A model generated the notes under the pieces. That model saw only the letters and a list, made by a program, of their open reading frames with translations, made no database searches and was not told the DNA's origin. The position numbers and the translations under genes are program-made. This document shows, in pieces, positions 2-41,507 of a stretch of 64,000 nucleotides of DNA (position 1 is the first letter of the stretch; each line of letters starts with the position of its first letter). Origin of the DNA: Phytohabitans rumicis (GTDB lineage Bacteria > Actinomycetota > Actinomycetes > Mycobacteriales > Micromonosporaceae); the NCBI RefSeq assembly GCF_011764445.1, contig NZ_BLPG01000001.1, positions 7,333,001 to 7,397,000 on the forward strand. Direction: 5' to 3'.

Positions 2-1195
2 GACCCGGAGCCCGAAGTCGACATCGCCCTCAGCGGCGACCTGGTGCGCTCGCTAGGCGGCGGCCGGCCCTGGCTGGTCATGGAGCACTCCACCGGTGCG
101 GTCAACTGGCAACACGTCAACCGTGCCAAGCGGCCGGGGGAGATGCACCGCAACGCGCTGGCCCACGTCGCCCACGGCGCCGACGGTATCGCCTTCTTTC
201 AATGGCGAGCGGCAACAAACGGCGCCGAGCAATGGCACTCGGCAATGCTTCCCCACGCGGGCACCGACAGCCGCATCTGGGACGACGTCGTCCGCCTCGG
301 CGCGGACCTGAAGGCACTCGCGGAGGTACGGGGCAGCGAGAGCGCCGCGCGGGTCGCCATCGTCTGGGACTGGGACGCCCGCTGGGCCCTCGAACTGCCC
401 TCCCAGCCCAGCGGCGAACTGCGCTACCAGGACCTGGTGCGGGACTGGTACGCGCCGCTGTGGCGAGCGGGCGTCGCCGTTGACTTCGTCAGCCCCGGCA
501 GCCCCAACCTCGACCGCTACCGACTGGTGCTCGTCCCCAGCCTTTACCTGGTCGACGACGCTGGCGCGGCGAACCTCACGAACTTCGCCGAGCGCGGCGG
601 CACCCTGGTTGTCGGCTTCCACAGCGGCGCCGTCGACGAAAACTGCCACATCCGCCTGGGCGGTTACCCGGGCGCCTTCCGGGACGTCCTCGGTGTGCGC
701 ACCGACGAGTTGTTTCCCTTGCTGCCTGGCGAAAGAGTCGGCCTCACCGGCGACGTGCCGGCGGGGGCGACGGCTGGTCTGTGGTCGGAGCGGCTCCGGC
801 TCGCCGGCGCTGAAGCCGTCGCCACGTACGCCGACGGTCCGGTGGCCGGCATCCCAGCCGTTACCCGCCGCACTCGCGGCAGCGGAGCTGCCTGGTACCT
901 GGCGACCCACCCCGACTCCACCACACTGGCGGCCGTGCTCGACCGCATCCGACGGGAGGCGGGCGTACAGCCGGAGCGTGCGGCGCCGGCCGGGATCGAG
1001 GTGGTCCGGCGTTGCGGTGCGGACGCGGACTATCTGTTCCTGATCGACCACGCTGGAGTCGGCGCCGAGGTCACCGCTGATGGCGTCGAACTCCTCACTG
1101 GCAAGACGGTCTGCGGCTCCGTCACCGTCCCTGCTGGAGGCGTCGCGGTCGTCCGAGAGCCGCACCGACCGGCACCCAGAAACTGGCGAGGCTGA
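2..1195 (+). CDS. GH42 beta-galactosidase, C-terminal part (5' end outside window)
   Basis: The reading frame is open from base 2, so the start lies upstream. Residues just inside the window (LVMEHSTGAVNWQ) match the strand carrying the catalytic nucleophile of family 42 glycoside hydrolases; the Glu of VMEHS is the likely nucleophile. The following part (about residues 100-300) is the trimerisation, glutamine-amidotransferase-like domain (LVLVPSLYLVDD, GGTLVVGF), and a small beta domain ends the protein. It should hydrolyse terminal beta-galactosides in the cytoplasm. The stop is 5 bp before the aldo/keto reductase start, so the two are probably co-transcribed. Confidence 0.88.
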   Translation, partial: DPEPEVDIALSGDLVRSLGGGRPWLVMEHSTGAVNWQHVNRAKRPGEMHRNALAHVAHGADGIAFFQWRAATNGAEQWHSAMLPHAGTDSRIWDDVVRLGADLKALAEVRGSESAARVAIVWDWDARWALELPSQPSGELRYQDLVRDWYAPLWRAGVAVDFVSPGSPNLDRYRLVLVPSLYLVDDAGAANLTNFAERGGTLVVGFHSGAVDENCHIRLGGYPGAFRDVLGVRTDELFPLLPGERVGLTGDVPAGATAGLWSERLRLAGAEAVATYADGPVAGIPAVTRRTRGSGAAWYLATHPDSTTLAAVLDRIRREAGVQPERAAPAGIEVVRRCGADADYLFLIDHAGVGAEVTADGVELLTGKTVCGSVTVPAGGVAVVREPHRPAPRNWRG

Positions 1196-1200
1196 TCAAC

Positions 1201-2196
1201 ATGGCGTACGTGGCAAGCCCGAAACGATACGACGACATGGTCTACCGGCGCAGCGGCCGCAGCGGGTTGAAGCTGCCCGCGATCTCCCTGGGACTGTGGC
1301 ACAACTTCGGCCACGACCGCCCCGCCGAGCGCCAGCGCGAGATCGTGCGGCGCGCGTTCGACCTCGGCGTGACCCACTTCGACCTGGCCAACAACTACGG
1401 CCCGCCGTATGGCGCGGCTGAGGAGAACTTCGGCCGGATACTGGCCGCGGACCTGAAGCCGTACCGCGACGAGCTGGTCATCGCGACGAAGGCCGGCTAC
1501 GACATGTGGCCCGGCCCGTACGGTGACTGGGGTTCGCGCAAATACCTGACCGCGTCGCTGGACCAGTCGCTGCGGCGGATGGGCCTGGACTACGTCGACG
1601 TCTTCTACTCGCACCGCTTCGACCCGGACACGCCGATCGAGGAGACGATGGGCGCGCTGGACGCGGCCGTGCGCGCGGGCAAGGCGCTGTACGCCGGCAT
1701 CTCGTCGTACACGTCGGCGCAGACGCGCCGGGCCGCGGCGATCCTGAGGGACCTGGGCACGCCGCTGCTGATCCACCAGCCGTCGTACTCGATGTTCAAT
1801 CGCTGGACCGAACGCGACCAGCTGCTGGACACGCTGGCCGACGTCGGCGCGGGCTGCATCGCGTTCTCGCCGCTGGCGCAGGGCCTGCTCACCGACCGCT
1901 ACCTCAACGGGGTGCCGGACGACTCGCGCATGCGCAGCAGCCGGTTCCTCGACGAGGACGCGCTGACCCTGGGCAAGCGGGTGAAGGTCGAGGGGCTCAA
2001 CGCGATCGCCAAGCGGCGCGGGCAGTCGCTGGCGCAGCTGGCGCTGGCCTGGGCGCTGCGCGACGAGCGGATGACCAGCGTCGTGATCGGGGCGTCGAGC
2101 GTGGCGCAGCTGGAGGGCAACGTGGTCGCGCTGGGCGACCTGCACTTCACGGCCGAGGAACTCGCCGAGATCGACCAGTTCGCGACCGAGGGCTAG
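1201..2196 (+). CDS. aldo/keto reductase, YghZ/L-glyceraldehyde-3-phosphate reductase type
   Basis: 331 residues, full length for the AKR14-like group. The AKR tetrad is visible: Asp and Tyr in HFDLANNYGPPYG, Lys in IATKAGYDMW and His in FYSHRFD. The C-terminal NADPH-binding strand SVVIGASSVAQLEGN is intact. The family reduces aldehydes such as L-glyceraldehyde 3-phosphate or methylglyoxal with NADPH. It follows the GH42 gene by 5 bp, so a role beside sugar breakdown is plausible, but the substrate cannot be told from sequence. Confidence 0.9.
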   Translation: MAYVASPKRYDDMVYRRSGRSGLKLPAISLGLWHNFGHDRPAERQREIVRRAFDLGVTHFDLANNYGPPYGAAEENFGRILAADLKPYRDELVIATKAGYDMWPGPYGDWGSRKYLTASLDQSLRRMGLDYVDVFYSHRFDPDTPIEETMGALDAAVRAGKALYAGISSYTSAQTRRAAAILRDLGTPLLIHQPSYSMFNRWTERDQLLDTLADVGAGCIAFSPLAQGLLTDRYLNGVPDDSRMRSSRFLDEDALTLGKRVKVEGLNAIAKRRGQSLAQLALAWALRDERMTSVVIGASSVAQLEGNVVALGDLHFTAEELAEIDQFATEG

Positions 2197-26256: not shown

Positions 26257-26712
26257 TTAGTTTGCCGTCGAGTTAGCGTCCCGTTCGGGGTCCTGTGTGG
26301 ACGGTGTCAGAGGAGCAAGTGCGAAGAGGCCGGGTTCGGTCTCGACGAGGACCTGGCGGGCGACGAGGCGTTTGAGTTTGGCGCGTAGCCCTTCGGTGTC
26401 CTTGGGTGTAGTGCCCAGGCCCAGTGCGAGGCACACGTCCTTGGCGCGCATCGCGTCGGTGGCGGCGGTGAACACGCCGCGGATCTGTTGGTAGGCAGGG
26501 CTGGCGACGGTCGCATCCGATGTTGCGGTGTCGGGCTGGCCGCCGGTCAAGGCGGTCAGGGTCTTACGGGTGGTCGCAAGGTCGGCCAGTTCCGTCTCGA
26601 CGCGGGCCAGTTGCGTAGTGAGTGTGGCGATCTGCTCGCGCAACCCTTGCGCTGTCGCGTTCGCGGCGTCTTCGCACTGCGCGATCAACTGCCAGATCGA
26701 CGGTGCGTTCAC
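26257..26712 (-). CDS. IS-associated coiled-coil protein, function unknown
   Basis: 151 residues. The N-terminal half is a coiled coil (LREQIATLTTQLARVETELADLATTRKTL). The C-terminal half looks like a small winged helix (SPAYQQIRGVFTAATDAMRAKDVCLALGL, then LRAKLKRLVARQVLVET). It lies 7 bp from a transposase remnant in the same direction; proteins of this build often sit beside actinomycete IS elements. Function unknown. Confidence 0.55.
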   Translation of the reverse strand: MNAPSIWQLIAQCEDAANATAQGLREQIATLTTQLARVETELADLATTRKTLTALTGGQPDTATSDATVASPAYQQIRGVFTAATDAMRAKDVCLALGLGTTPKDTEGLRAKLKRLVARQVLVETEPGLFALAPLTPSTQDPERDANSTAN

Positions 26713-26719
26713 GAGGGTG

Positions 26720-26925
26720 CTACACCCGACGCCAGGACGGTGTGGCCGTACCGGTCAACCGTCGGACCAGGTTCGCCGTGGACGCCCACAGCGTGCGGGA
26801 CACCGACGAGGTCGGCTTGGACTCGTACTCGCGGGTCAACCTGCGGTGCTGCATCAGGGGGCCGTTGGTCTGCTCGACCACCCACCGCCGTTTGATCGGC
26901 ACGAACCCGGCCGCGGTAGTGGTGC
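26720..26925 (-). pseudogene. IS5-family transposase C-terminal fragment
   Basis: AAGFVPIKRRWVVEQTNGPL, MQHRRLTREYES and LWASTANLVRRLTG are the final 60 residues of an IS5/DDE_Tnp_1 transposase, including the catalytic Glu region (VVEQT). Everything upstream is missing; the remnant abuts an M23 peptidase fragment on the other strand near 26930. Confidence 0.8.
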
Positions 26926-26934
26926 GCTTGACGG

Positions 26935-27369
26935 GGTGGACCTCGCAGCAGCGTGCAGCACGCCGGTCCGGGCGCCGCGTCCGGAACGGTCCTCACCGTG
27001 CGGTGCAACGTGGACCCCGCCTCCCACGGCTGCGACATCGACGGCTCCCGCAAATCGGCGGCTGCGACCAGTTACGTCGACATCGCCCACGCCGGCGGCG
27101 TCATCACCCGCTACTGCCATATGGGCCAACGACCCTTCGTCGAGCAAGGCCGGCATATCGTCGTCGGCCATGTCATCGGACTCGTGGGCTCCAGCGGCCA
27201 CTCCTCCGGTCCGCACCTGCACTACGAAGTACACCTCAACCGCGACTCGAGCGCTGCCGGGGCCGTCGACCCCGTCCGGTTCATGCGAGATGTCGGGGCA
27301 CCGCTTGGTAAACCAGTGTCGTGTAGGTTCTCGTTGAACATGTCGCCGTCTCATGGAGATGTCGCCTGA
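26935..27369 (+). pseudogene. M23 metallopeptidase remnant, 3' end occupied by the Tn7-like element
   Basis: GVDLAAACSTPVRA, then (one base off) SGTVLTVRCNVDP, ITRYCHMGQRPFVEQG, GLVGSSGHSSGPHLHYEVHL and AVDPVRFMRDVG are the LytM/M23 core with the HxH motif. The part before GVDLA, including the first zinc His, is missing. The transposon starts at 27322, so the present C-terminus after GAPLGKPVS is transposon-encoded. Removing the element and one TGTCG copy gives GAPLGKPVSR followed by TGA, so the insertion hit the last two codons. Confidence 0.82.
27317..27321. repeat. 5-bp target-site duplication, left copy (TGTCG)
   Basis: TGTCG immediately precedes the left terminal TGTAGG; an identical 5-mer follows the right terminus at 34695-34699. 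Five base pairs is the duplication length of Tn7-family transposition. Confidence 0.88.
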
Positions 27370-27397
27370 GATGTCGCTTGCGACATTTCCGTGAGAA
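27322..27397 (+). repeat. transposon end proximal to tnsA, with TnsB-site-like repeats
   Basis: The terminal TGTAGG is followed by a repeated motif TTCTCA-N6-TGTCGC. Copies: TTCTCGTTGAACATGTCGC at 27329; GTCTCATGGAGATGTCGCC at 27349; and an inverted copy GCGACATTTCCGTGAGAA at 27380-27397. Spacing and orientation equal those of the second end at 38713. They are probably TnsB binding sites. Confidence 0.8.
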
Positions 27398-27450
27398 GTG
27401 GTTCGGCGTGGCGTCGATGGATCTCGATCTGAATCTAGCACTATCCGGGT

Positions 27451-28203
27451 ATGTCCGGCGTTGTGGTCACCCGTTCGCGTGCGCCGATGGTCCGGTATCG
27501 GAGCGCCACTGGTGAGTTCGGCGAGAGCCGACTGGACCGGGTGTCTGCCGAGGTGCTGCTGAGCGGCGTGCCGGTTCGGGAGTTCCGCTGGTTCAAGGGA
27601 CGTCGGTTCTATTCGGGCTGGTACTGGTCAGCTACGACTGGCGGCTTGGTGGCCTATGAGAGCCGCCTGGAGCTGGCCCGCGTCTTGTTAGCGGACTTCG
27701 ACCCGGCGGTGGTGGCGATTGCGGCGCAGCCATTTCAGCTGTCGGGCATGGATGCTGGCCGGAGCCGTTCGCATGTGCCGGATCTGTTGCTGCAGGACAC
27801 GTCCGGCCTGGTGACAGTGGTGGACGTAAAGCCGGAACACCGGCTTGCGCGTCCGGAGGTGCAGGCGGTGTTCCGGTGGACCGAGGAGTTGGTCACGGCC
27901 CATGGCTGGGCCTTCGAGGTCTGGTCGGGGACCGACGCGGTGGTGTTGGAGAACGTGCGCTTCCTGGCTGGCTACCGCCGTCCGGGAACGATCGAGCGGG
28001 GCTTGCTACCGCTGGTGATGGAAGCGTCTGAGCAGGGCGGAACTATCGAGGAGCTGGAGCTCACGCTGCGTTCTCAGGCGCCGGTGTCGGCGGCCCGCCC
28101 GGCCATTTTGCATCTGCTTTGGCGGGGTGATCTGCAAGCCGATCTGACGGTGCCGCTGGCGGCTGGGTCGGCGGTCTGGCCGTGTGGGAGGTCGGTTCGT
28201 TGA
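27451..28203 (+). CDS. tnsA: TnsA-like transposon endonuclease
   Basis: 250 residues. A PD-(D/E)xK nuclease core is visible: Glu in YESRLELARVLL, Asp in SHVPDLLLQD and the VVDVKPEH strand with the catalytic Lys, then a tail that should contact TnsC. TnsA cuts the 5' ends of the element so that it moves by cut-and-paste. TGATG couples its stop to the tnsB start. Confidence 0.9.
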   Translation: MSGVVVTRSRAPMVRYRSATGEFGESRLDRVSAEVLLSGVPVREFRWFKGRRFYSGWYWSATTGGLVAYESRLELARVLLADFDPAVVAIAAQPFQLSGMDAGRSRSHVPDLLLQDTSGLVTVVDVKPEHRLARPEVQAVFRWTEELVTAHGWAFEVWSGTDAVVLENVRFLAGYRRPGTIERGLLPLVMEASEQGGTIEELELTLRSQAPVSAARPAILHLLWRGDLQADLTVPLAAGSAVWPCGRSVR

Positions 28204-30227
28204 TGGATTCGGTGATCAGCATCGGCCCGGGCGCTCATCTGTTGTTCGACGGCGACTTGGTCGAGGTCGTGGAGTTGGAGGGTACGCGGGTCACGCTGCG
28301 CAACCTGCGTACGCAGGGGCACCTGGTGGTCGGCTTGACGCGGCTGGCGGCCCGGGCACGCCGGCCTGCCGGCGATCACGACCGGGAGGCGGCGGGCGTG
28401 ATGCTGGCCGGGCTGACGGTCGAGCAACGCCGCGAGCTGGGCGAACGCGCCGGGCATGTGCGGGAGGTGCTGACCGGGTTTCGCAGCGGCGATCCGAGCC
28501 GTCCGGCACCGGGTGAGCCCGACCCGGCATTCGTGGCCGACGTCGCGTTGAAGGCCCGTTACCGGGCCAAGGCGGCGCAGCTGGGTGTGACGGCCCGGAC
28601 GGTCGAGCGTTGGGTGGCTGCCTACCGGGAGTGGGGCGAGGCGGGTCTGGTCGATCGCCGCGACGGTTCTCCACCTGCGGTTGACGTCCGGTGGGAGGAC
28701 GCGGTCCGGCAGGTGGTGGCCGAGTCGGTGAGCGCGTCGACGCCGACGCGGAGCGCGGTGTTGGCCAGGGCGGCGGCCCGCTTGGAGAAGGAGTACGGCC
28801 CAGGGGTAGTGCCGGTTCCGTCGCGGGCGACGGCTTACCGCCGGTTGGCGGAGTTGGCCAAGGGCACCAATGCGGTGTCCGGTAGTGCGAAGGCGCGCCG
28901 GTCGATCGCTGACCGTCCGAAGGGTGTCTACGGCAGGTTGCGCGCGACGCGGCCGGGTGAGTACGTCGTGTTGGACACCCAGGATCTGGACGTGTTCGCG
29001 ATGGAGCCGGTGACCTGCCGCTGGGTGCGTGCTCAGCTGACCGTGGCCCAGGACCTGTTCACCCGCTGCGTCGTGGGCTTGCGCGTCACCCCGGTCTCGA
29101 CGAAGGCGGTCGACGTCGCCGGGGTCCTCTACGAGACGGTGGCTGGCAGGGAAGCGCCGAGATCGTGGCCGCGCGAGGCGGTCTGGCCCTACCACGGCGT
29201 CCCGACCAATGTGGTCTTCGACGAGCACGGCCCGCCCATGACCGGGCCGGTCTGCGCGCCGGAGACTTTGGTCGTCGATCACGGCAAGGTGTTCTTGTCG
29301 GCGCACGTGATCGCGGTCTGCACCCGGCTGGGGATCTCAATCCAGCCGGCGCAGCCGCACAAGCCGACCGACAAACCCACGGTGGAGCGGTTCTTCCGCA
29401 CCTTGCGGGAGGGGCTGATCCAGCACCTGCCGGCCTACAAAGGACCGGACATCCACTCGCGCGGGGACCGGGTCGAGGACGAGGCGTTCCTGTTCCTCAA
29501 CGAGTTGGAGGACGTGATCCGGGAGTGGACCGCGACCGTCTACCACTGCAGCAAGCACGACGGTCTGACGGTGCCGCAGTGGCCGCAGTTGAAGCTGTCC
29601 CCGGCGGAGATGTTCGCCATCGGGGTCGGCAAGGCCGGCATGTTGCGGATCCCGGCGACACCGGAGCTAGCACTGGATTTCCTGCCGGTGGTGGGACGCA
29701 CAATCCAGCACTACGGGGTCGAGGCGCACGGCCTGCGCTACAACGGCCCGGTGCTGGACGGCTACCGCAACGCCACCAGCCCCTACGGCGGGGCGCTGGC
29801 CGGCAAGTGGCCGATCCGGATCAACCCGGACGACGTGCGACATGCCTGGTTCTGCGATCCGGCCGACAACCGTTGGCACCGCCTGGATTGGGAGCACCAG
29901 CCGCTGCTGGATCTCCCGTTCTCGGCCGAGGCCGCCGCGCACGCCCGCCGGCTGGCGACCTCCACCGGCGAACTGGATGCGGCCAAGACCCTGGCTGGTC
30001 TGCTGGAGCGTTGGGAGGCCGGCCTGGTCACGGACCGGCGGGAGCGGCGCATGGCGGTACGCCTCGCGGCCGAGTACACCGCCCTGCCCGCCGCCGCACC
30101 ACCAGCCGCGGCGCCGCCGACGGCGCCACCGGCCGCGGCTGAGCTGGTGCTTGTCGACGGTGATGACGATGACGAGGGTGAGTTGGAGGATGGGTTCTAC
30201 GACGACGCGTTCGAGGTCCTGGCGTGA
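28203..30227 (+). CDS. tnsB: TnsB-like DDE transposase
   Basis: 674 residues. N-terminal DNA-binding helices (LGVTARTVERWVAAYREWG) are followed by an RNase H-fold integrase core with catalytic Asp in VVLDTQDLDVFA, Asp in LVVDHGKVFLS and Glu in KPTVERFFRTLREG. Then comes a Mu-type beta-barrel region and an Ala/Pro linker with an acidic tail (DGDDDDEGELEDGFYDD), the likely TnsC-binding hook. It binds the repeated end sites and joins 3' ends to the target. It ends in a GTGA overlap with tnsC. Confidence 0.93.
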   Translation: MDSVISIGPGAHLLFDGDLVEVVELEGTRVTLRNLRTQGHLVVGLTRLAARARRPAGDHDREAAGVMLAGLTVEQRRELGERAGHVREVLTGFRSGDPSRPAPGEPDPAFVADVALKARYRAKAAQLGVTARTVERWVAAYREWGEAGLVDRRDGSPPAVDVRWEDAVRQVVAESVSASTPTRSAVLARAAARLEKEYGPGVVPVPSRATAYRRLAELAKGTNAVSGSAKARRSIADRPKGVYGRLRATRPGEYVVLDTQDLDVFAMEPVTCRWVRAQLTVAQDLFTRCVVGLRVTPVSTKAVDVAGVLYETVAGREAPRSWPREAVWPYHGVPTNVVFDEHGPPMTGPVCAPETLVVDHGKVFLSAHVIAVCTRLGISIQPAQPHKPTDKPTVERFFRTLREGLIQHLPAYKGPDIHSRGDRVEDEAFLFLNELEDVIREWTATVYHCSKHDGLTVPQWPQLKLSPAEMFAIGVGKAGMLRIPATPELALDFLPVVGRTIQHYGVEAHGLRYNGPVLDGYRNATSPYGGALAGKWPIRINPDDVRHAWFCDPADNRWHRLDWEHQPLLDLPFSAEAAAHARRLATSTGELDAAKTLAGLLERWEAGLVTDRRERRMAVRLAAEYTALPAAAPPAAAPPTAPPAAAELVLVDGDDDDEGELEDGFYDDAFEVLA

Positions 30228-31318
30228 GTGGCGGTGGGCTCTACACCTTGTCGCGCAAGGAGGGCTGGCGCCGTTGGGCCGACGCCACCGCCCGCGCTCG
30301 GCCGGAGTCGCTGACCGCGCGGCAGATCGGCCGGCTGGGTGCGGACGCCAAGGCTGACTACGACGATGCCCGGCACGACTGGCACGCCAACTTCGGCACC
30401 ATCAAGACCCCGCAGCTGGCCGCGATCCACGACGAGCTCGACCAGATCGTGGCCACCAACCGGCAGGACCCGGACCGAGTCCGCGGCGCCGCGGTCATCG
30501 ACGCCCTACCCGGTTTGGGCAAGACCACGATCGCGAACACGTTCGCCCGGGACTTCGACCGCACCCAGCGGCGCCGGCACGGAGACCTCACCGACGAAGG
30601 CCACGAACGGCTCCCGGTGTTTCGGGTCGGGCTGACCTCACGCACCACCCTGCGCACCCTGAACCGGATGATCTGCGAGTTCTACGGCCATCCCGGCACC
30701 GACCGCGCCAACTCCGCCCAGTTGGCCAGCTTCGCCGTCGACTGTGTGCTGTCCTGCCACACCCGTATCGGGGTCATCGACGACCTGCACTTCATCGACC
30801 CGAACCGCCGGGACGGGATCGAGGTGTCCAACCATCTGAAGTGGCTGTCCAACGAGCTGCCGGTCACGTTTATCTACGCCGGTGTCGGGCTGGCCGAACG
30901 CCGTCTGTTCGCCGAAGGGCTGACCGGCGACAACGCGGTCATGGCCCAGACCGCCCGCCGGTGGACCCGGCTGGAGCTACCTCCGTTCGCGGTCGGCGAC
31001 AACGCCAGCCGCCGGCAGTGGCGCAGCCTGCTCAAGGCCACTGAACGCCAGCTCGTGCTCGCCAAGGTGCACCCGGGCATGCTCACCGACCTGGACGACT
31101 ACCTGTTCGCCCGCTCCAGCGGCCACATCGGATCGTTCATCACCCTCGTCACCCGCGGCTGCTACAAAGCCATCCGCACCGGCACCGAGCAGCTGACCGA
31201 GCCGCTGCTGGACAGCGTCCGCATCGACGAAGCCTCCGAGGCCGCCCGGCACCGGCTGCACGCCGGGCTCACCGCCGCCCGGCGATCTCGCCGCCCGGGC
31301 ACGGCGACCACCTCCTGA
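30224..31318 (+). CDS. tnsC: TnsC-like AAA+ regulator ATPase
   Basis: 364 residues. Walker A is ALPGLGKTT (about 94-102), Walker B RIGVIDDLHFID (about 181-192), and a sensor-like segment TFIYAGVGLAERRL follows. TnsC polymerises on target DNA and links the target selector to TnsAB. GTG start overlaps the tnsB stop. The next gene begins 4 bp after its stop. Confidence 0.92.
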   Translation: MSGGGLYTLSRKEGWRRWADATARARPESLTARQIGRLGADAKADYDDARHDWHANFGTIKTPQLAAIHDELDQIVATNRQDPDRVRGAAVIDALPGLGKTTIANTFARDFDRTQRRRHGDLTDEGHERLPVFRVGLTSRTTLRTLNRMICEFYGHPGTDRANSAQLASFAVDCVLSCHTRIGVIDDLHFIDPNRRDGIEVSNHLKWLSNELPVTFIYAGVGLAERRLFAEGLTGDNAVMAQTARRWTRLELPPFAVGDNASRRQWRSLLKATERQLVLAKVHPGMLTDLDDYLFARSSGHIGSFITLVTRGCYKAIRTGTEQLTEPLLDSVRIDEASEAARHRLHAGLTAARRSRRPGTATTS

Positions 31319-31322
31319 ACCG

Positions 31323-33985
31323 ATGCTCGTGCAGCCGCGCACGCTCCCGCTGCGGGTCCCGCTCGCCGACGGGGAAGCGCTGGACTCATGGCTGGCGCGT
31401 TTGTCCCACCGCAACGGCATCCCGGTGCTTCCCCTATCACGGGCGCTGGGCTTCGGTGACCGGCTACGGGTCTGGCACAACCACGCCCTGACCTGGCGGC
31501 TGCCGGCGCCGCTGCTGCGGCGCATGGAAGCCCAGACCGGGCTACCGACCGGCGCGCTGGACGCGGCGTTGCTGGACCAGTTCGACGTCCTGGGCTGGAA
31601 ACCGACCGCCGGCTCCCGCTACTGCCCGGCCTGCCTCACCGAGACGGGCGGCATCTGGCCGCTGCGCTGGCAGCTGCCCCACACGTTCGCCTGCCTGGCC
31701 CACCGGTGCCTGCTGGCCGTGCTATGCCCAGGCTGCGGACGCACCCCGCGGTCTCGGATCTCTGAACGGTCCGGGCTCGCCCCACCCACCCGCTGCACGC
31801 TGGGCACCTCCCGCCACGGCAACCCTTGCGAGGCTGACCTGCTCACCCACCGGTGGCAGCGGCTACGGGAGGGTGATCCGCGGCTGGCCGCGCAGGCGTG
31901 GGTCGACGAACGTCTGGACCGCATGGACGCCACAGCGGTCACCGACCTGCGGGACCTCGACGCCCTCGCGATCTGGTTCCGGCAGCGCATCTATCCGAGC
32001 GAGCTCAAACATCTCGGCGCGGCGACGGTCGCGGCGATGACCGAGTTCCGCGACGAAAACCACGCCCTCAAGCGCCACCAGCGGACCGCCGGCCTGATCG
32101 CCGCTGCGATGACCTGCCACGCCATCGACGTCATCACCCTCGACGATCACCACCGCGACCGACGGCTGGCCCCGCTGTTACGGGATGTCCATACCCAATA
32201 CCGGCGGTCTGGGCAGACGCCGTCGACGCGTGGGCCGATGATCCTGTCCCACAAGCGGCTGACGAGCCTGTCGGAACCGTTGCAGCGCAAGGTGTTGCGG
32301 TCGATCGACGCGAAGCTTCCGGTCACCGAGCGGTTGCGTTACCGCACCTGCACCCCTCGCCGCGCGCACCGCGGCCTGGCGCCACGACCGCCGCCGAACG
32401 GGCCAGGCACATCCCGCAATACCTTTGGCCGGAATGGATCATCCGGTTCCAGCCCTTGCGAGGCGCGCACACCGACGACCTCGCCATCGACCTGGCCAGG
32501 GCGCTGCTGATCCCCGGCAACCCGGTCCGCAACATCCATGCCACCAGCGAACTGAACCCGTGGCGCAACAACGTCAGCATCTTCCTCAGCGAGATCGCCG
32601 CACACTATCCGGACACGTTGACCGCGCTCTGCAACATCGCCGCATACCTGGACACCCACGGGGCGCCGATCGACTACCGGCGCCGCCGCACCGCCTTCAC
32701 CGACGTCGATCTCACCGAGGCCCAATTCGCACAGATCTGCCTCCGGGCGGACGCCAACCCAGGACGGGGAGCCCGGCTGCTGCACGCCCGCCGGCACCTG
32801 TTCGCCCTTCTCACCGGGGCCGACCTATTCAACCGGCGACACCAGATGGCCTTCGCCAATCCGCATGAACGCGGCCACTACCACCTGTTCCAGCAGCAGA
32901 TGACCAGCACTCTGCGCGCCGAACTGCACCGCCACGCAACGGACCTGCTCGCCGCGGCTGGCATCGACGAGCCGGTGACCTGGAGCCCACCCGGCCAGTG
33001 CGTCGCCGGCCTCAAGCTGCCCGGCCGCGAACCCGACGACATCGACCTGAACGCCCTGCATCAGATGGTCATCGTCGACGGCACCAGCTCGCGGTCGGTG
33101 GCGCGCCGGCTCGGTGTCACCGTCGAACACGTCCGCTATGCCAGCCAACAATTGCACCGGCTACCACCACAGCGCGCACCCAACAGCAAGCCTCGCATCA
33201 GCAAGCTCCGCGCCCGCGCCGAGCAACTGCTTACGCGGGAGTTCTTTCAACGTGAGCACGTCGCGGCCGGCAAGAACCTGGCCACCCTGGCAACCGAGAC
33301 CGGGTTCTCCCGTTGGATGCTGCACGAGCACGCCCGCGCTGCTGGCGTCAAGATCGTGACACGGAAGATCAAGGAACGCGTCAAGGTCACCCGGGCCCTG
33401 CGCGGCGACCGCATCGACCCTCAGTGGCTGCGCGAGCAGGCAGGCACCCTGCACCGCGCCAACACCGACATCGCCGCCGAACTCGGCCTGTCCCACGAAA
33501 CGATCCGCCGCTACCGCCGCGACTACGGCATTCCCAGCCGGCCCACCGGCGGGCACAGCCACGTCGTCAGCAACCTGCGCCACCCCAACCTGCCCCGCGA
33601 CATCCGCCTCGCCGTCGAAGGCCAACGCGGCGGCTGGCAACGCCTACACCGATTCCAGCAGATGATCGCCTACCCCAGCATGAACACCGCAGCCGCAGCG
33701 CTCGGCCTGCACACCCAGAACCTCAACCTGCAAATCCAACGCCTCGAAACCGACATCGGCGGCCAACTCCTACAACGAGCCCCACACCGCTACGCACCCA
33801 TGGTCCCCACCCGTCGCGGACAACGCCTGCTCGACCACCTCAAACAGCCGGCCATCCGTGAACTACTGGACCGCTACGCCGACGCCAACGCCCGCCCCAA
33901 ATGCGGACCATACAAGCGCTCCACCAGCGATAACACGACCAGCAGCGTCAACGATGCGCCGCCATCGGTCGCGGTCAGCAGATGA
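31323..33985 (+). CDS. tniQ: large TniQ/TnsD-like target-selection protein, 1-base shift
   Basis: 887 residues after adding one C at the run 32353-32356 (the two halves then join at RTCTPSPRAPRPG). The N-terminus is TniQ-like (ALDSWLARLSHRNGI) with a zinc-ribbon (RYCPACLTETGG, FACLAHRC, VLCPGCGRT). The C-terminal half has several helix-turn-helix units: SSRSVARRLGVTVEHVRYAS, ATLATETGFSRWMLHEHA, TDIAAELGLSHETIRRYRRD and NTAAAALGLHTQNLNLQIQR. This size and DNA-binding array fit a TnsD-type protein that recognises a fixed attachment site, here probably the M23 gene end. Confidence 0.87.
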
Positions 33986-34005
33986 TCGAGGCGCTCCCGT
34001 CACCT

Positions 34006-34350
34006 CTACGGCTGTTTCAGCCGCAGGAAGAGGGCAACGGAACCCACGATTGCAGCGCCGAGGACGAGGCCCCAGAAGAAGGCGCGTCTTAAGCGAGAGC
34101 CGACCTTCTCCTGCTGACGTCTCAGTTTTTCCCGTGCCGACTGTCGCTCCTGCCGCAGTTGCTCAGCCAGATCCAACGCAAGCTCGTGCCATCTATCGAT
34201 CAGTAACCGCGCGTCAGCGGGGACCTTACCTGGTGGCAGTTTCGCCAGCCTTGATCTGGCCTCATTGATCTTCTGCCACCTCGTTGGACGGGCAGCGTGT
34301 TCCAAGATCCGCTTAGCCTCTTCACCTGGCCCGCCTGCCCGATCCGCCAC
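34006..34350 (-). CDS. cargo: small coiled-coil, tail-anchored membrane protein
   Basis: 114 residues from GTG 34350, with GGAGG 8 bp upstream. The N-terminal part is helical (EEAKRILEHAARPTRWQKIN). A charged coiled coil follows (LAEQLRQERQSAREKLRRQQ), then one C-terminal TM (AFFWGLVLGAAIVGSVALFL). It is the only gene in the transposon beyond the transposition module. Its role is unknown. Confidence 0.6.
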   Translation of the reverse strand: MADRAGGPGEEAKRILEHAARPTRWQKINEARSRLAKLPPGKVPADARLLIDRWHELALDLAEQLRQERQSAREKLRRQQEKVGSRLRRAFFWGLVLGAAIVGSVALFLRLKQP

Positions 34351-34580
34351 CTGCCCACCTCCCAGTCGAACGGTGCTGACGATTCGACACGCAGGCCGCA
34401 CCACGCAACAGCCACCTGTCGGATAGCAGTCAGGTCGCCTAAGAGGCGAAGTGGACCAGCACACGCGCCGCGCTGCGGTAACAGCTGTGCACCCATCCGA
34501 ACGGACCGCTACCGCGCTACGGGTAACGCTGCCGCTAACCGTCACAGCCCACGATCACGGCAGAGGCGCACCCAGCCCAT

Positions 34581-34694
34581 GGTCATCAAGAAAGTGACAG
34601 ATCGGTGAGAACAACCGGCCGACAAACCGCTGAGAAGACGCAGTCAGGCCCAGGTCAGCGGCACACCCAACGACAAGATCAACGAGAACCTACA
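34581..34694 (-). repeat. transposon end distal to tns genes, with TnsB-site-like repeats
   Basis: Terminal TGTAGGTTCTCGTTGATCT reads on the minus strand from 34694. Two more motif copies lie inside (minus strand): CTTCTCAGCGGTTTGTCGG ending near 34621 and GTTCTCACCGATCTGTCAC near 34594-34612. The block 34581-34637 recurs at 41453-41507. Confidence 0.82.
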
Positions 34695-34699
34695 TGTCG
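34695..34699. repeat. 5-bp target-site duplication, right copy (TGTCG)
   Basis: Identical to 27317-27321. Joining the flanks here gives ...GTAAACCAG-TGTCG-CGCTGA, which puts a stop codon back in the M23 frame. Confidence 0.88.
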
Positions 34700-34926
34700 C
34701 GCTGACGCAGCAACGCGTCGGCATCACACTCAAGCCGATGAGTGTGTCGGCGAATCGCGCTGCGGCACCGAGCAGCGTCACGACCCGCTGTTGTGCGCCG
34801 CACGTCCGCCGAGGCACGGTCCGGCTGCGTTGGACGCAGGCAAGGATCAATGCATGCTGTCGATGCGGGCGGAACTGGTCGCCTGTGCGGGTCCTGTTCG
34901 ATGCTGGTGGCGTGGGTAGCCCTCGG

Positions 34927-38293: not shown

Positions 38294-38701
38294 GCAGCTA
38301 CTAACGGGATCGACATCGCCGCGCCGCGCGGCTCCGTCATCTGGGCAGCCTCCGCCGGGCTCGTGGTCACCGTGTTGTGCAACGTGGCCGTGCAGTCCTA
38401 CGCGCCCACCAGCGGCACGTTGACGTGCGACTCCGATGGCTATCCGGGCCTGGGCGGGTGTGGCTGGTATGTGCAGATCCGTCACACCGACGCTGTGACG
38501 CGGTACTGTCACATGCTCGAACAGCCTGCCGTCCGCGTAGGGCAGACCGTGACCGCCGGACAACCCATCGGACTGGCCGGCACATCCGGCAACTCCTCCG
38601 GCGTGCACGTCCACGTAGAGATCCACAGTGGACACCCGGCAACGAGTTCCAATGCGGTCTCCCCAGTGCCGTTCCTCGCCGCCCTAGGCGTGCAGTGGTA
38701 A
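38294..38701 (+). pseudogene. second M23 metallopeptidase remnant
   Basis: NGIDIAAPRGSVIWAASAGL, VTRYCHMLEQPAVRVGQ and GLAGTSGNSSGVHVHVEIHS form an M23 core, but a TAA at 38291-38293 closes the frame just upstream and no start exists. The first zinc His is replaced (TNGID). It is only distantly similar to the remnant at 26935, yet both begin at the same G-[VI]-D-[LI]-A residue. A Tn7-like end starts 11 bp after its stop. Confidence 0.78.
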
Positions 38702-38712
38702 GCCTTCTCGCC

Positions 38713-38788
38713 TGTAGGTTCTCAGAAGAGATGTCCCATCCTCAAATGAGAGGACCACTGGTTGTCCCATGGGTCAATAGATGAGAAC
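38713..38788 (+). repeat. second Tn7-like end, same type as 27322
   Basis: TGTAGGTTCTCAGAAGAGATG begins at 38713. Its first 11 bases equal the terminus at 27322. A TTCTCA-N6-TGTCCC site lies at 38719, a diverged middle site near 38740, and an inverted site GGGTCAATAGATGAGAAC at 38771-38788, all at the same offsets as in the 27322 end. Confidence 0.78.
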
Positions 38789-38851
38789 ACGACCGGACCT
38801 GATGCCCGACCAGGTGGCGTCGCCCGCGCCGCTCCGGCGGGCCGCAGCAGA

Positions 38852-39136
38852 TCAGTCGGTCATGTGGAGCCACTGCTTGCGGGACTGATCGTAGCGGGCC
38901 ACCGTTTCGGTCCGGATCGTTTCGAGTGGCATCCACTCGTCGTCCGGGTTCCAGCGTTCGCCGCCGTGGGCTTGGGCGTAGATCGGATTCGACGCCCACA
39001 GCACCAGGATCTGCTCGTCACTCACCTCGTACACCCAGCCGAGGAACTCCCGACCGTCGATGAGGCTGAAGCCGACCTTGTCACCGCGGTCTGCGCACGC
39101 CGCGAAGAACGCACTTATCGCCGGTCGTTGCGACAC
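38852..39136 (-). CDS. hypothetical protein, SH3-like, cargo
   Basis: 94 residues. The middle (KVGFSLIDGREFLGWVYEVS, EQILVLWASNP) looks like a small beta barrel. It carries a Trp-rich end (DDEWMPLETIRTETVARYD). It is divergent from the next gene with 87 bp between. No family recognised. Confidence 0.5.
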   Translation of the reverse strand: MSQRPAISAFFAACADRGDKVGFSLIDGREFLGWVYEVSDEQILVLWASNPIYAQAHGGERWNPDDEWMPLETIRTETVARYDQSRKQWLHMTD

Positions 39137-39223
39137 GTCTGCAGACTACGAGACCACCAGATCCATCGGCAACGTGCATCCGGCCCCATCGAAGCTCGGT
39201 GCTCGCGGGCGTATGGTCGGTGT

Positions 39224-40219
39224 GTGTCATGGCCCGCCGTCTATGTGGTGATGGACGACGACGTCCTTGACCAGTTGGCCGGTTGGCACCTTCCGGCCGA
39301 CGACGGTCTGCTGTACGCCGCTGTAGAAAGCTCGGGCCTGGCGGTCGGGCCGACTCGTTCGTACCGAATCGTTCTCGATCGGTGGGGTGCCCTCGGGATC
39401 GACAGCATGCTGGCCGGTGGACCCGGGTTTGCCCTGAGCAGGATGCTGGCGGGTGCCGACAAGTGCCGTCTCGGCGCAGGTCACGCCGCGGTGCTGGTGG
39501 ACGTGCGGCGCCGACGGCTGTTGTTCCACTACAGCACGGTCGCGCTGGCCGGCGGCGGCGGTCTCGGCGCGAGCCATGTCGATTTCCGGCTCGGGCTCTT
39601 AGCTCTGTTGAGCCGGATCTGGGAAGGTTGGCAGGTCGACTGGGCCTGGCGCGGCGATCTGGACCTGGCCGAGCACATCGGCCTCGTCGAGGACTTCCGC
39701 CAGCCGCTTGAGGATCCCCGTCGCCTGTGGCCCGGCGTTCACGAAGACCAGACGGTGGTGATGGTCCGGACCGGCGCTGAGGTGCGGGTCTGGTCGACGA
39801 TGTCCACTGCCATCGGTGCCTTCCTACACGGTCCGTCCCTTGTGGATGGTGTGGACGGCGGTGTCGACGAGCGGGAACTCACGGCGATGCCCGCCGGCGG
39901 TCTCTATCTCGATCCGCACCGGCGGGAGATGGACTGGTGGACGACGGGAACCACCGAGGGCTGGGACGCGTCGGCCGCCGCAGCCGAACGCTGGCCGGGC
40001 TGGCGGGCGCAGTTCCTGCGCGACGACTTCTCGCGGTTCTTCGCACGGTGGGCGCCAGCAGTGGACCTGCCAGTGCAGCCGCTGCGCGGGTTGGCCGGCC
40101 TGCGGCACCGACTGAACAGCCCCGGCGCTGAGCACCGCTACGGCACCGACCGGTGGGAGCTGCTCCAGGTCGCCCTCACCGAACTCCAGGCACGGTCACA
40201 TGTTTGGGGCTACGAGTAG
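39224..40219 (+). CDS. hypothetical protein, cargo
   Basis: 331 residues from GTG 39224 (ATG 39251 is an alternative). Soluble, Trp-rich, with DRWGALGIDSMLAGGPGFAL and MDWWTTGTTEGWDASAAAAE as notable segments. No signal peptide, TM helix or known motif is visible. Codon use is like that of true genes of this genome. Function unknown. Confidence 0.6.
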   Translation: MSWPAVYVVMDDDVLDQLAGWHLPADDGLLYAAVESSGLAVGPTRSYRIVLDRWGALGIDSMLAGGPGFALSRMLAGADKCRLGAGHAAVLVDVRRRRLLFHYSTVALAGGGGLGASHVDFRLGLLALLSRIWEGWQVDWAWRGDLDLAEHIGLVEDFRQPLEDPRRLWPGVHEDQTVVMVRTGAEVRVWSTMSTAIGAFLHGPSLVDGVDGGVDERELTAMPAGGLYLDPHRREMDWWTTGTTEGWDASAAAAERWPGWRAQFLRDDFSRFFARWAPAVDLPVQPLRGLAGLRHRLNSPGAEHRYGTDRWELLQVALTELQARSHVWGYE

Positions 40220-40245
40220 CGGCGAAGGACCCAGGTTCGCGATCC

Positions 40246-41199
40246 TCATACCTCGTCGCGCACGGTGACCAGAGCATGGTCGGCGCATGAGACATAGAGG
40301 CGCCGATTTGGCCAGTCGGCGGCGATCTCGATCGGCCCGATGCCGTATTTGGCGTCGTCCAACTGCGTCTCAGACACCCGCGAGCCGCCGCGAGCGTCCA
40401 GGACCGCTAGCGTCCCAGCATCCCAGAACGCGACGAGCAGCCGCGCGCCGTCGCCGCTCACGCCCACAGCCAGGGGCTCCGGCAACACCGGGTCTGCGAA
40501 GGCCACGCCGAAGAGCCCAACCCCCGGCCGATTGGACAGCGTGGACAGCTGCACGGTCTGAATTGCCTCGAGCGCCGTCGTATCGACGACCGTAATGCTC
40601 TGCGACCGCCGGTTAGCGACGTAAAGCCGCGTGCCGGATGGATCCAGCGCCATGTCGACGGGATTACGACCCACTTCGATGGTCGCAACGGTGCCCAAGG
40701 TCCGGGCGTCGATCGCGGACACCGTCGCATCGGCGTTATTGCAGACATACACGCAATCACCGGACGGACTCGCCACCAGAGACGTCGGTCGCCTACCGGT
40801 CCGGACTGTGTCCAGCACCCGCTGCGCATCGGTGTCGACCACCGACATGGTGTCGGTATGCGCGTTCGCGACGTACAACCGATCGCCGCTGCATGCCAGC
40901 GCCCACGGTTGCTTGCCGACCTTGACGCGTGAGGTCTCGGCAGCCACGCGCACGTCAACGATCGACACGTCGTTGGAACTGAAGTTCGCCACGTATATCC
41001 GCTCGCCGTCGGGGTCGACGGCGATACCCGACGGCGTCCTGCCGACCAGGATGCGCGCGACTTCCGTGCGCGCGTACGGGTCGACGACCGTCACAGTGCC
41101 GCGCCGCCTACGCAGACTCCGCAACGATCCGAGGACACCCGGGTTGGCCAAGTAGACGCGATCCCCGGACGGGCTCACCGCGATAGCGCGAGGGAGCAT
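40246..41199 (-). CDS. YVTN/YncE-type beta-propeller protein, cargo
   Basis: 317 residues with six or seven repeats of the form PxG.R(L/I)YVAN....(V/I)VD (GERIYVANFSSNDVSIVD, GDRLYVANAHTDTMSVVD, GTRLYVANRRSQSITVVD). It lacks a signal peptide, unlike most family members, and no ribosome site precedes ATG 41199, so the 5' end may be lost. It is tail to tail with the preceding cargo gene. Confidence 0.8.
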   Translation of the reverse strand: MLPRAIAVSPSGDRVYLANPGVLGSLRSLRRRRGTVTVVDPYARTEVARILVGRTPSGIAVDPDGERIYVANFSSNDVSIVDVRVAAETSRVKVGKQPWALACSGDRLYVANAHTDTMSVVDTDAQRVLDTVRTGRRPTSLVASPSGDCVYVCNNADATVSAIDARTLGTVATIEVGRNPVDMALDPSGTRLYVANRRSQSITVVDTTALEAIQTVQLSTLSNRPGVGLFGVAFADPVLPEPLAVGVSGDGARLLVAFWDAGTLAVLDARGGSRVSETQLDDAKYGIGPIEIAADWPNRRLYVSCADHALVTVRDEV

Positions 41200-41452
41200 C
41201 CTTCAGCATCATCAGCTGTGAGTTGATCCGCACCGGCGCCCCCTAGCGGCACGAGCCCGGCCCGAATCTTCCATCGCCGCTTCGGTAGTGCCGGGCCGGG
41301 CGTGGGCAGTCGGGTGGATGGTACGCGCCACAGGCGATCGCAGCGTTCTTGACAGCGCTACTGATAACGGTCCGATCGCGGCCTGACCACAGCGGCCGAT
41401 TCGCACCCTCGCGCTCCACGGTCGTCCAGGACTCGCCCACGCACCACCAAGG

Positions 41453-41507
41453 TCATCAAGAAAGTGACAGGTCGATGAGAACCAACGACCGACAAGCCGG
41501 TGAGAAC
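41453..41507 (-). repeat. right-end-like block of Tn7-like element
   Basis: GTCATCAAGAAAGTGACAG at 41454 and the following 35 bp repeat the block at 34581-34637 with few differences. Two minus-strand sites, GGTTCTCATCGACCTGTCAC and GGTTCTCACCGGCTTGTCGG, fit the TTCTCA-N6-TGTC motif of all ends in this window. Confidence 0.72.

Follow-up and report, generated by a model that had tools for sequence, protein, structure and literature searches.

A Tn7-like transposon close to the stop codon of an M23 peptidase gene of Phytohabitans rumicis and its probable homing to the 3' ends of such genes

The window analysed here, a stretch of 64,000 nucleotides from an actinomycete, contains a Tn7-like transposon of 7,373 bp with little cargo (27322-34694), inserted inside the two final codons of what is left of an M23 peptidoglycan-peptidase gene. 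The sequence-only reading of the same stretch described the transposon and passed over the insertion point, which is a recurrent target and not an incidental one. In its composition the element is Tn7-like by several features taken together: TnsB is encoded beside other core genes, with an AAA+ regulator and TniQ, between inverted termini that carry repeats and that are bordered by a 5-bp duplication.

The terminal 16 bp, TGTAGGTTCTCGTTGA, are identical at 27322-27337 on the forward and at 34679-34694 on the reverse strand, and these are the only two matches to this sequence in the window at up to three mismatches; shuffled windows gave 0.16 matches on average, and two matches were obtained in one of 100 shuffles. 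Ten exact inverted 16-mer pairs lying 0.5-30 kb apart occur in the window, several of them mutually overlapping, and one of the ten, the pair of transposon termini, has equal 5-bp flanks. The repeated TTCTC...TGTCG motifs of the left end are taken as putative TnsB sites; under a strict pattern this end has one direct and one inverted TTCTC...TGTC, and the right end has three. Joining the flanks with a single TGTCG gives ...GAPLGKPVSR*, with the M23 stop codon supplied from 34703-34705, beyond the far end of the transposon. The exact ends, the duplication, the gene set, the scarcity of cargo and the restored stop, all proposed before from the letters alone, are thereby confirmed (Table 1). The interrupted gene being of the M23 family, glmS was ruled out as the target.

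Table 1. Features of the transposon, of the second copy in the window and of four small related elements (the last four rows are numbered within their own loci)
Feature	Position	Strand	Evidence or remark
Target gene, M23 peptidase C-terminal remnant	26953..27321	+	PF01551 55.1 bits
Left target duplication TGTCG	27317..27321	.	
Left end with tip TGTAGGTTCTCGTTGA and TTCTC...TGTCG repeats	27322..27398	+	model R1 56.5 bits (training sequence)
tnsA, 250 aa	27451..28203	+	NF033179 242.8 bits (cut-off 110); PF08722 27.4 bits
tnsB, 681 aa, DDE-type transposase	28182..30227	+	Pfam search, alignment, profile comparison
tnsC, 364 aa, TniB/AAA ATPase	30224..31318	+	PF05621 (TniB) 46.7 bits against cut-off 22.4; PF13401
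tniQ first part, TniQ domain, zinc-finger-like cysteines	31323..32339	+	PF06527 64.4 bits
tniQ second part, other frame, C-terminal region with helix-turn-helix matches	32342..33985	+	
ORF of 179 aa, sole cargo candidate	34006..34545	-	no Pfam family; stretch without counterpart in L176
Right end, three TTCTC...TGTC motifs and terminal TGTAGGTTCTCGTTGA	34571..34694	-	
Right target duplication TGTCG	34695..34699	.	
Second M23 remnant	38348..38701	+	41% identical to first remnant
Second left end, TGTAGGTTCTCAGAAGAG...	38713..38790	+	model R1 51.6 bits (training sequence)
Decayed right end, 60-bp piece	41447..41506	+	87% identical to inner right end of transposon
Small element L171	907-1617		
Small element L169	1012-2792		
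Small element L168	2030-6646		
Small element L179 (reverse complement)	879-2016		

The genes follow the order tnsA-tnsB-tnsC-tniQ. They had been described as one overlapping operon, of which the gene set stands but the overlap of tnsC with tniQ does not, a 4-nt gap separating the two. Residues D265, D366 and E402 of TnsB are invariant across five aligned TnsB proteins and presumably form the catalytic triad. Among TniQ chains of solved structure the first part of TniQ finds weak matches (E 0.03-0.04). The reading frame of tniQ breaks off at about 32340-32360, and homology goes on in another frame through 33985. Neither TnsE nor Cas12k was found among the ORFs of the transposon.

A complete close relative, L176, is present in another genome of the same family. 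It measures 6,591 bp, is bordered by the duplication CGCCC and has all four genes, with tniQ in one frame and the right end about 100 nt behind it. Its proteins share 58% (TnsA), 72% (TnsB), 84% (TnsC) and 69/56% (TniQ) of residues with those of the window, and the DNA of the two elements is 71-78% identical (77.0% at the right tips) in an alignment that takes in either tip and most of the length. L176 is also inserted in an M23 gene, at the same position, and the stop codon is restored 6 nt past the junction, as in the window. The minimal complete unit is L176, and the earlier view of the window copy as close to a minimal autonomous one is not supported, its tniQ being broken.

Further copies with the same termini, which the sequence-only reading had proposed to look for, were found in relatives. 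TnsB relatives at E <= 1e-30 occur in 157 plasmid records, and 46 relative loci were taken from the genome collection; the viral contigs gave no TnsB relative, and none of 14 pattern matches there was confirmed. Ends were searched at 55 loci, 54 of them distinct (L028 and L039 are one contig), both ends having to lie within three mismatches of an 11-nt consensus and to be bordered by an exact 5-bp duplication. Thirteen of the 54 have such ends: the window, five relatives on plasmids (L022-L026), L028, L037, L038, L045, L049, L063 and L074. The tip TGTAGGTTCTC is common to both ends of the window element, L022, L023, L024 and L045. A truncated relative, reduced to the latter half of tnsB and a portion of tnsC, was observed at L116/L029 (genome G106), its TnsB stretch being 78% identical, and ends of the searched pattern were not found at this locus. 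The own genome carries, at about 3.81 Mb of contig C1 (L031), a second Tn7-like tnsA-tnsB-tnsC set with a TnsB 34% identical.

The search for an empty site, also suggested earlier, had a divided outcome. For the window locus none was found in 151 genomes with a joined query of 482 nt: in the other 150 genomes no match extends past position 209 or crosses the junction, and the right flank matched the own genome alone among the 151. For L024, which has the same terminal 11 bp, an empty site was found in two strains of Rhodococcus opacus (three records), its joined flanks being covered over positions 1-266 of 268 at 86-88% identity.

How regular the insertion is can be judged from a census of left ends, made with a model (R1) built from 12 left-end sequences with their flanks excluded and applied to 300 genomes of one family, which we take to be Micromonosporaceae. 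It matched 44 left ends in 36 of the 300 genomes, and exactly two in the own genome, both of them the left ends of the window and both training sequences. M23 genes precede 23 of the 44 ends, which begin 49-59 nt after a DPxxFM-type codon (mean 54.0, SD 2.39); in the window the DPVRFM codons start at 27268, which puts 54 nt between their first base and the left end. Four training sequences are among the 44 (the window twice, L028 and L034), two of them at M23 genes, so that 21 of 40 remain when these are removed. As for the rest, L152 is a second end 226 nt behind an M23-adjacent one, five ends lie behind NlpC/P60 genes, one (L028) behind an ORF of unknown family, and 14 have no recognised target, two of these abutting the end-like GAACCTACA. 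L028, the closest relative outside the pair of the window and L176, is not at an M23 stop: it begins 26 nt after this ORF, and the M23 gene there lies 650 nt upstream. These counts take each site singly, and some sites may share descent.

Taken over 18 of the 24 M23 rows, the distance from DPxxFM to the end varies less than that from the stop codon (SD 2.14 against 4.89, p = 2e-4), which rules out a constant stop-codon distance; over the same rows it is also less variable than that from the HxH motif (SD 5.02), the latter difference being not significant (p = 0.06). The anchors DPxxFM and HAPxxG were picked by eye after the sequences had been viewed. The M23 genes beside the ends differ widely, with 39-60% identity to that of the window. 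The left-end sequence is not a native ending of M23 homologues: among the top ones (19 fetched, 17 measurable) it is absent at the corresponding place in 16 of 17, L082 being the only one with an end-like sequence there. Near the insertion sites conservation is highest in a block that starts about 58 nt upstream and stops about 16 nt short of the insertion; this is no proof of binding, because the block also encodes conserved protein.

Behind NlpC/P60 genes a similar picture is obtained. Eleven such loci were recognised by eye and ten measured (L034 was missed by the pattern), with Pfam confirmation on four, and the distance from the HAPxxG codon to the end is 91-98 nt (SD 2.0, n=10), whereas that from the stop ranges over 5-26 nt (SD 8.05; Brown-Forsythe p = 5e-4). 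Insertion at a fixed distance from a coding motif, in the manner of TnsD, is thus observed at both M23 and NlpC sites. Other relatives occupy the 3' ends of quite different genes: of a VirB4-like conjugation ATPase at three Nocardia loci (L026, L048, L049), one of which matched NCBIfam at 39.8 bits, below the cut-off; of dnaB at L035 and L051 (Pfam on L051); and of gap at L056, L059 and L061 (Pfam on L056). In a TniQ tree of 44 rows, 23 of them without assigned target, the window and L176, both at M23 genes, are sisters at 100/100; the three Nocardia loci form a group with support of 100/100, as do the two dnaB loci with 100/99. Target labels require 13 changes on this tree against a shuffled mean of 19.9, a number as low being reached in 0 of 200 shuffles; NlpC and gap do not form single groups, NlpC requiring 6 changes (as low in 25 of 500 shuffles). 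TniQ of the M23 type has about 850 residues (L176), against 947-1005 in most of the NlpC type. The pairing of M23 target and TniQ type is drawn from two complete elements, since a full tns set is present at one of 20 fetched sites (17 M23, 3 NlpC), namely L176.

From the data above we consider it very probable that the element is a cut-and-paste Tn7-like transposon, employing TnsA with TnsB, TnsC and one TniQ, which homes to the 3' ends of M23 genes. The exact ends, the 5-bp duplication, the gene set and the recurrent placement about 54 nt past the M23 codon pair are shown at the level of sequence; homing of the TnsD type through TniQ, with its recognition step, we infer by analogy with Tn7. 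The long TnsD-like C-terminus of TniQ would bind the DNA that encodes ...DPxxFMxxxGAPL..., the bound protein would recruit TnsC, and TnsA and TnsB would then paste the element downstream of that DNA, at a constant spacing that brings it to the stop codon. Because insertion falls there, the enzyme gene would lose little or nothing; in the window the joined flanks would restore the stop one codon later. Target binding by the TniQ C-terminus, recruitment of TnsC and downstream insertion by TnsAB are all described for Tn7 in the accessible portions of PMC11406308 and PMC10293859.

That a preference of TnsB and TnsC, or of a host factor, for gene 3' ends and not TniQ creates the M23 association seems improbable to us. 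Such a preference would accommodate the relatives at the stop codons of quite different genes; moreover, TniQ-DNA binding is a deduction here and many of the fetched end sites carry no tniQ, so that the selector which placed those ends is unseen. Yet the insertion distance varies less when taken from the coding motif than from the stop codon, the targets follow the branches of the TniQ tree, and TnsD/TniQ is the established selector of Tn7-like elements according to what is accessible of PMC11406308. The presence of an M23 gene next to 23 of the 44 left ends might also suggest that this gene belongs to the element as cargo or as a part of it. We give this hardly any credence: the termini and the duplication stand between the M23 gene and tnsA, and the position of the duplication already refutes the cargo reading; the joined flanks restore the M23 stop in both the window and L176; and the divergence of the flanking M23 genes, with 16 of the 17 top homologues lacking the end, speaks against it as well. 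Random insertion, with the M23 position in the window due to chance, could appeal to the 14 ends without recognised target, but it is scarcely believable when 23 of 44 ends fall into a span of 11 nt that is counted from a single codon in a single gene family.

Homing to M23 genes being retained as the preferred reading, the state of the window copy is a separate matter. As read, this copy is probably non-autonomous, since its tniQ is frame-broken while that of L176 is in one frame. It might instead be active, if the break stems from an error of sequencing or from programmed frameshifting; the open remainder of the operon and the homology kept by both tniQ halves would agree with that; we regard this as possible and rather doubtful, for tniQ is unbroken in a single frame in L176, L022, L023, L025 and L026, and with five relatives reading it so no frame programming is needed. 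The target gene is truncated at its 5' end too, 26953-27321 being its whole remainder. A truncated target together with a broken tniQ indicates that the window copy is probably stranded, unless the tniQ break is a sequencing error. The truncated gene is abutted by an ORF at 26709-27053 on the reverse strand, for which a Pfam search gave no match; to our eye it resembles the C-terminus of an IS5-type transposase.

The window holds traces of a second event of the same kind. A second left end stands 11 nt after the stop of another M23 remnant, whose SPVPFL codon precedes it by 53 nt. Behind this end (38713-41506) there are no tns genes, and a right-end remnant lies 2.7 kb beyond; this remnant (41447-41506) is the one further place in the own genome with a DNA match to the transposon above 70 bits. 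The stretch 38713-41506 may represent a decayed relative, possibly the remains of two. Short elements that lack a full tns set, yet have both ends and an exact duplication each, stand at M23 genes (L168, L169, L171) and at an NlpC gene (L179); they carry STAS, pentapeptide/DinB-like or unknown genes, the pentapeptide/DinB Pfam match having been made on a similar gene of L166. Small elements of this sort were likely moved in trans. L168 retains a tniQ relic, and related pentapeptide/DinB-like genes are seen in L166, L167 and L179, from three genomes; the imperfect small elements L165, L166, L167 and L180 are left out of the exact-duplication counts. Ends stacked directly behind the end of another element were noted at L045 (16130), L145 and L153, and as the second left end of L045 directly follows the first element, one site can serve repeatedly.

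Elements of this general kind are known. Like Tn7, the present one has TnsA with TnsB, an AAA regulator, a TniQ-domain selector with a long C-terminus, a 5-bp duplication and an insertion point that lies at a constant spacing beyond conserved coding sequence at the 3' end of a gene. Whereas TnsD of Tn7 reads the 3' coding end of glmS, as stated in the accessible part of PMC11406308, the targets here are M23 or NlpC/P60 peptidoglycan-hydrolase genes, a single TniQ is present with no TnsE found, and TnsB is distantly related (7pik, E 4.6e-5). By profile the nearest solved TnsB proteins are those of type V-K CAST (ShCAST; 8aa5, 7svw; E ~3e-16), from which the window element differs in having tnsA and a long TniQ and no Cas12k among its ORFs. 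One study is said to deal with telomeric Tn7-like elements. With the Tn5053 family a single TniQ selector and plasmid-linked targets are shared, as far as the accessible text of PMC11406308 describes them; that family targets resolution sites, in contrast to the window element with its tnsA and its use of gene 3' ends.

In actinomycetes, Tn7-like elements are not rare, and the rarity asserted by the sequence-only reading was overstated: TnsA scores well above the cut-off of an actinobacterial TnsA-like subfamily, NF033179, which covers this type, the plasmid records with relatives are numerous, and an actinobacteria-dominated clade 2 of Tn7-like transposons, not experimentally characterised, is presented in the accessible part of Benler 2021 (PMC8649781). 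Our element is similar to that clade, by description, in host phylum and core genes; M23 or NlpC targets are not named in the same portion of that source. Tn7706 of Rhodococcus erythropolis, as described in the accessible part of PMC12915292, likewise comes from an actinomycete, has tnsA, tnsB, tniQ and tniB and occurs in plasmid copies, but it has 19,377 bp and 19 genes and no cell-wall target is described for it there. Among the open-access papers listed, none seemed to deal with M23 or NlpC attachment sites, and as far as those papers reach the Tn7-like kind is known and the peptidoglycan-hydrolase class of targets is new.

Some M23 targets are linked to conjugation. Relatives of VirB4, SCO6880 or SCO6881 are encoded in the upstream stretch, of up to 8.5 kb, at six of 20 M23 sites, at neither site of the window, which weakens the link to a part of the M23 targets and rules out that these always lie in conjugation operons. 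They are also found at three of six M23 genes chosen as unoccupied comparisons, two of these three having supplied query proteins and one of the six (L111) bearing an end-like sequence, and at two of nine NlpC sites tested (L024, L045); L022, an NlpC site, has an annotated conjugation operon that was the source of query proteins. Hydrolase genes stand both on chromosomes and in plasmid conjugation operons, so one selector may serve a safe chromosomal site as well as a transmissible plasmid. We tentatively suggest an actinobacterial lineage in which a single TniQ is aimed at the catalytic-domain end of M23 and NlpC/P60 genes and serves chromosome and plasmid alike, with tns-less elements at the same sites moved in trans; as the conjugation link is partial, the one-selector idea is offered as a possibility and not as a finding.

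If this is true, one TniQ would do what Tn7 does with TnsD and TnsE. The sites described here give the poorly characterised Tn7-like elements of actinobacteria testable attachment sites, with the peptidase-homing and the VirB4-homing TniQ proteins as candidates, and a 6.6-kb unit such as L176, with few parts and a defined site, would be a natural start for site-specific insertion in actinomycetes.
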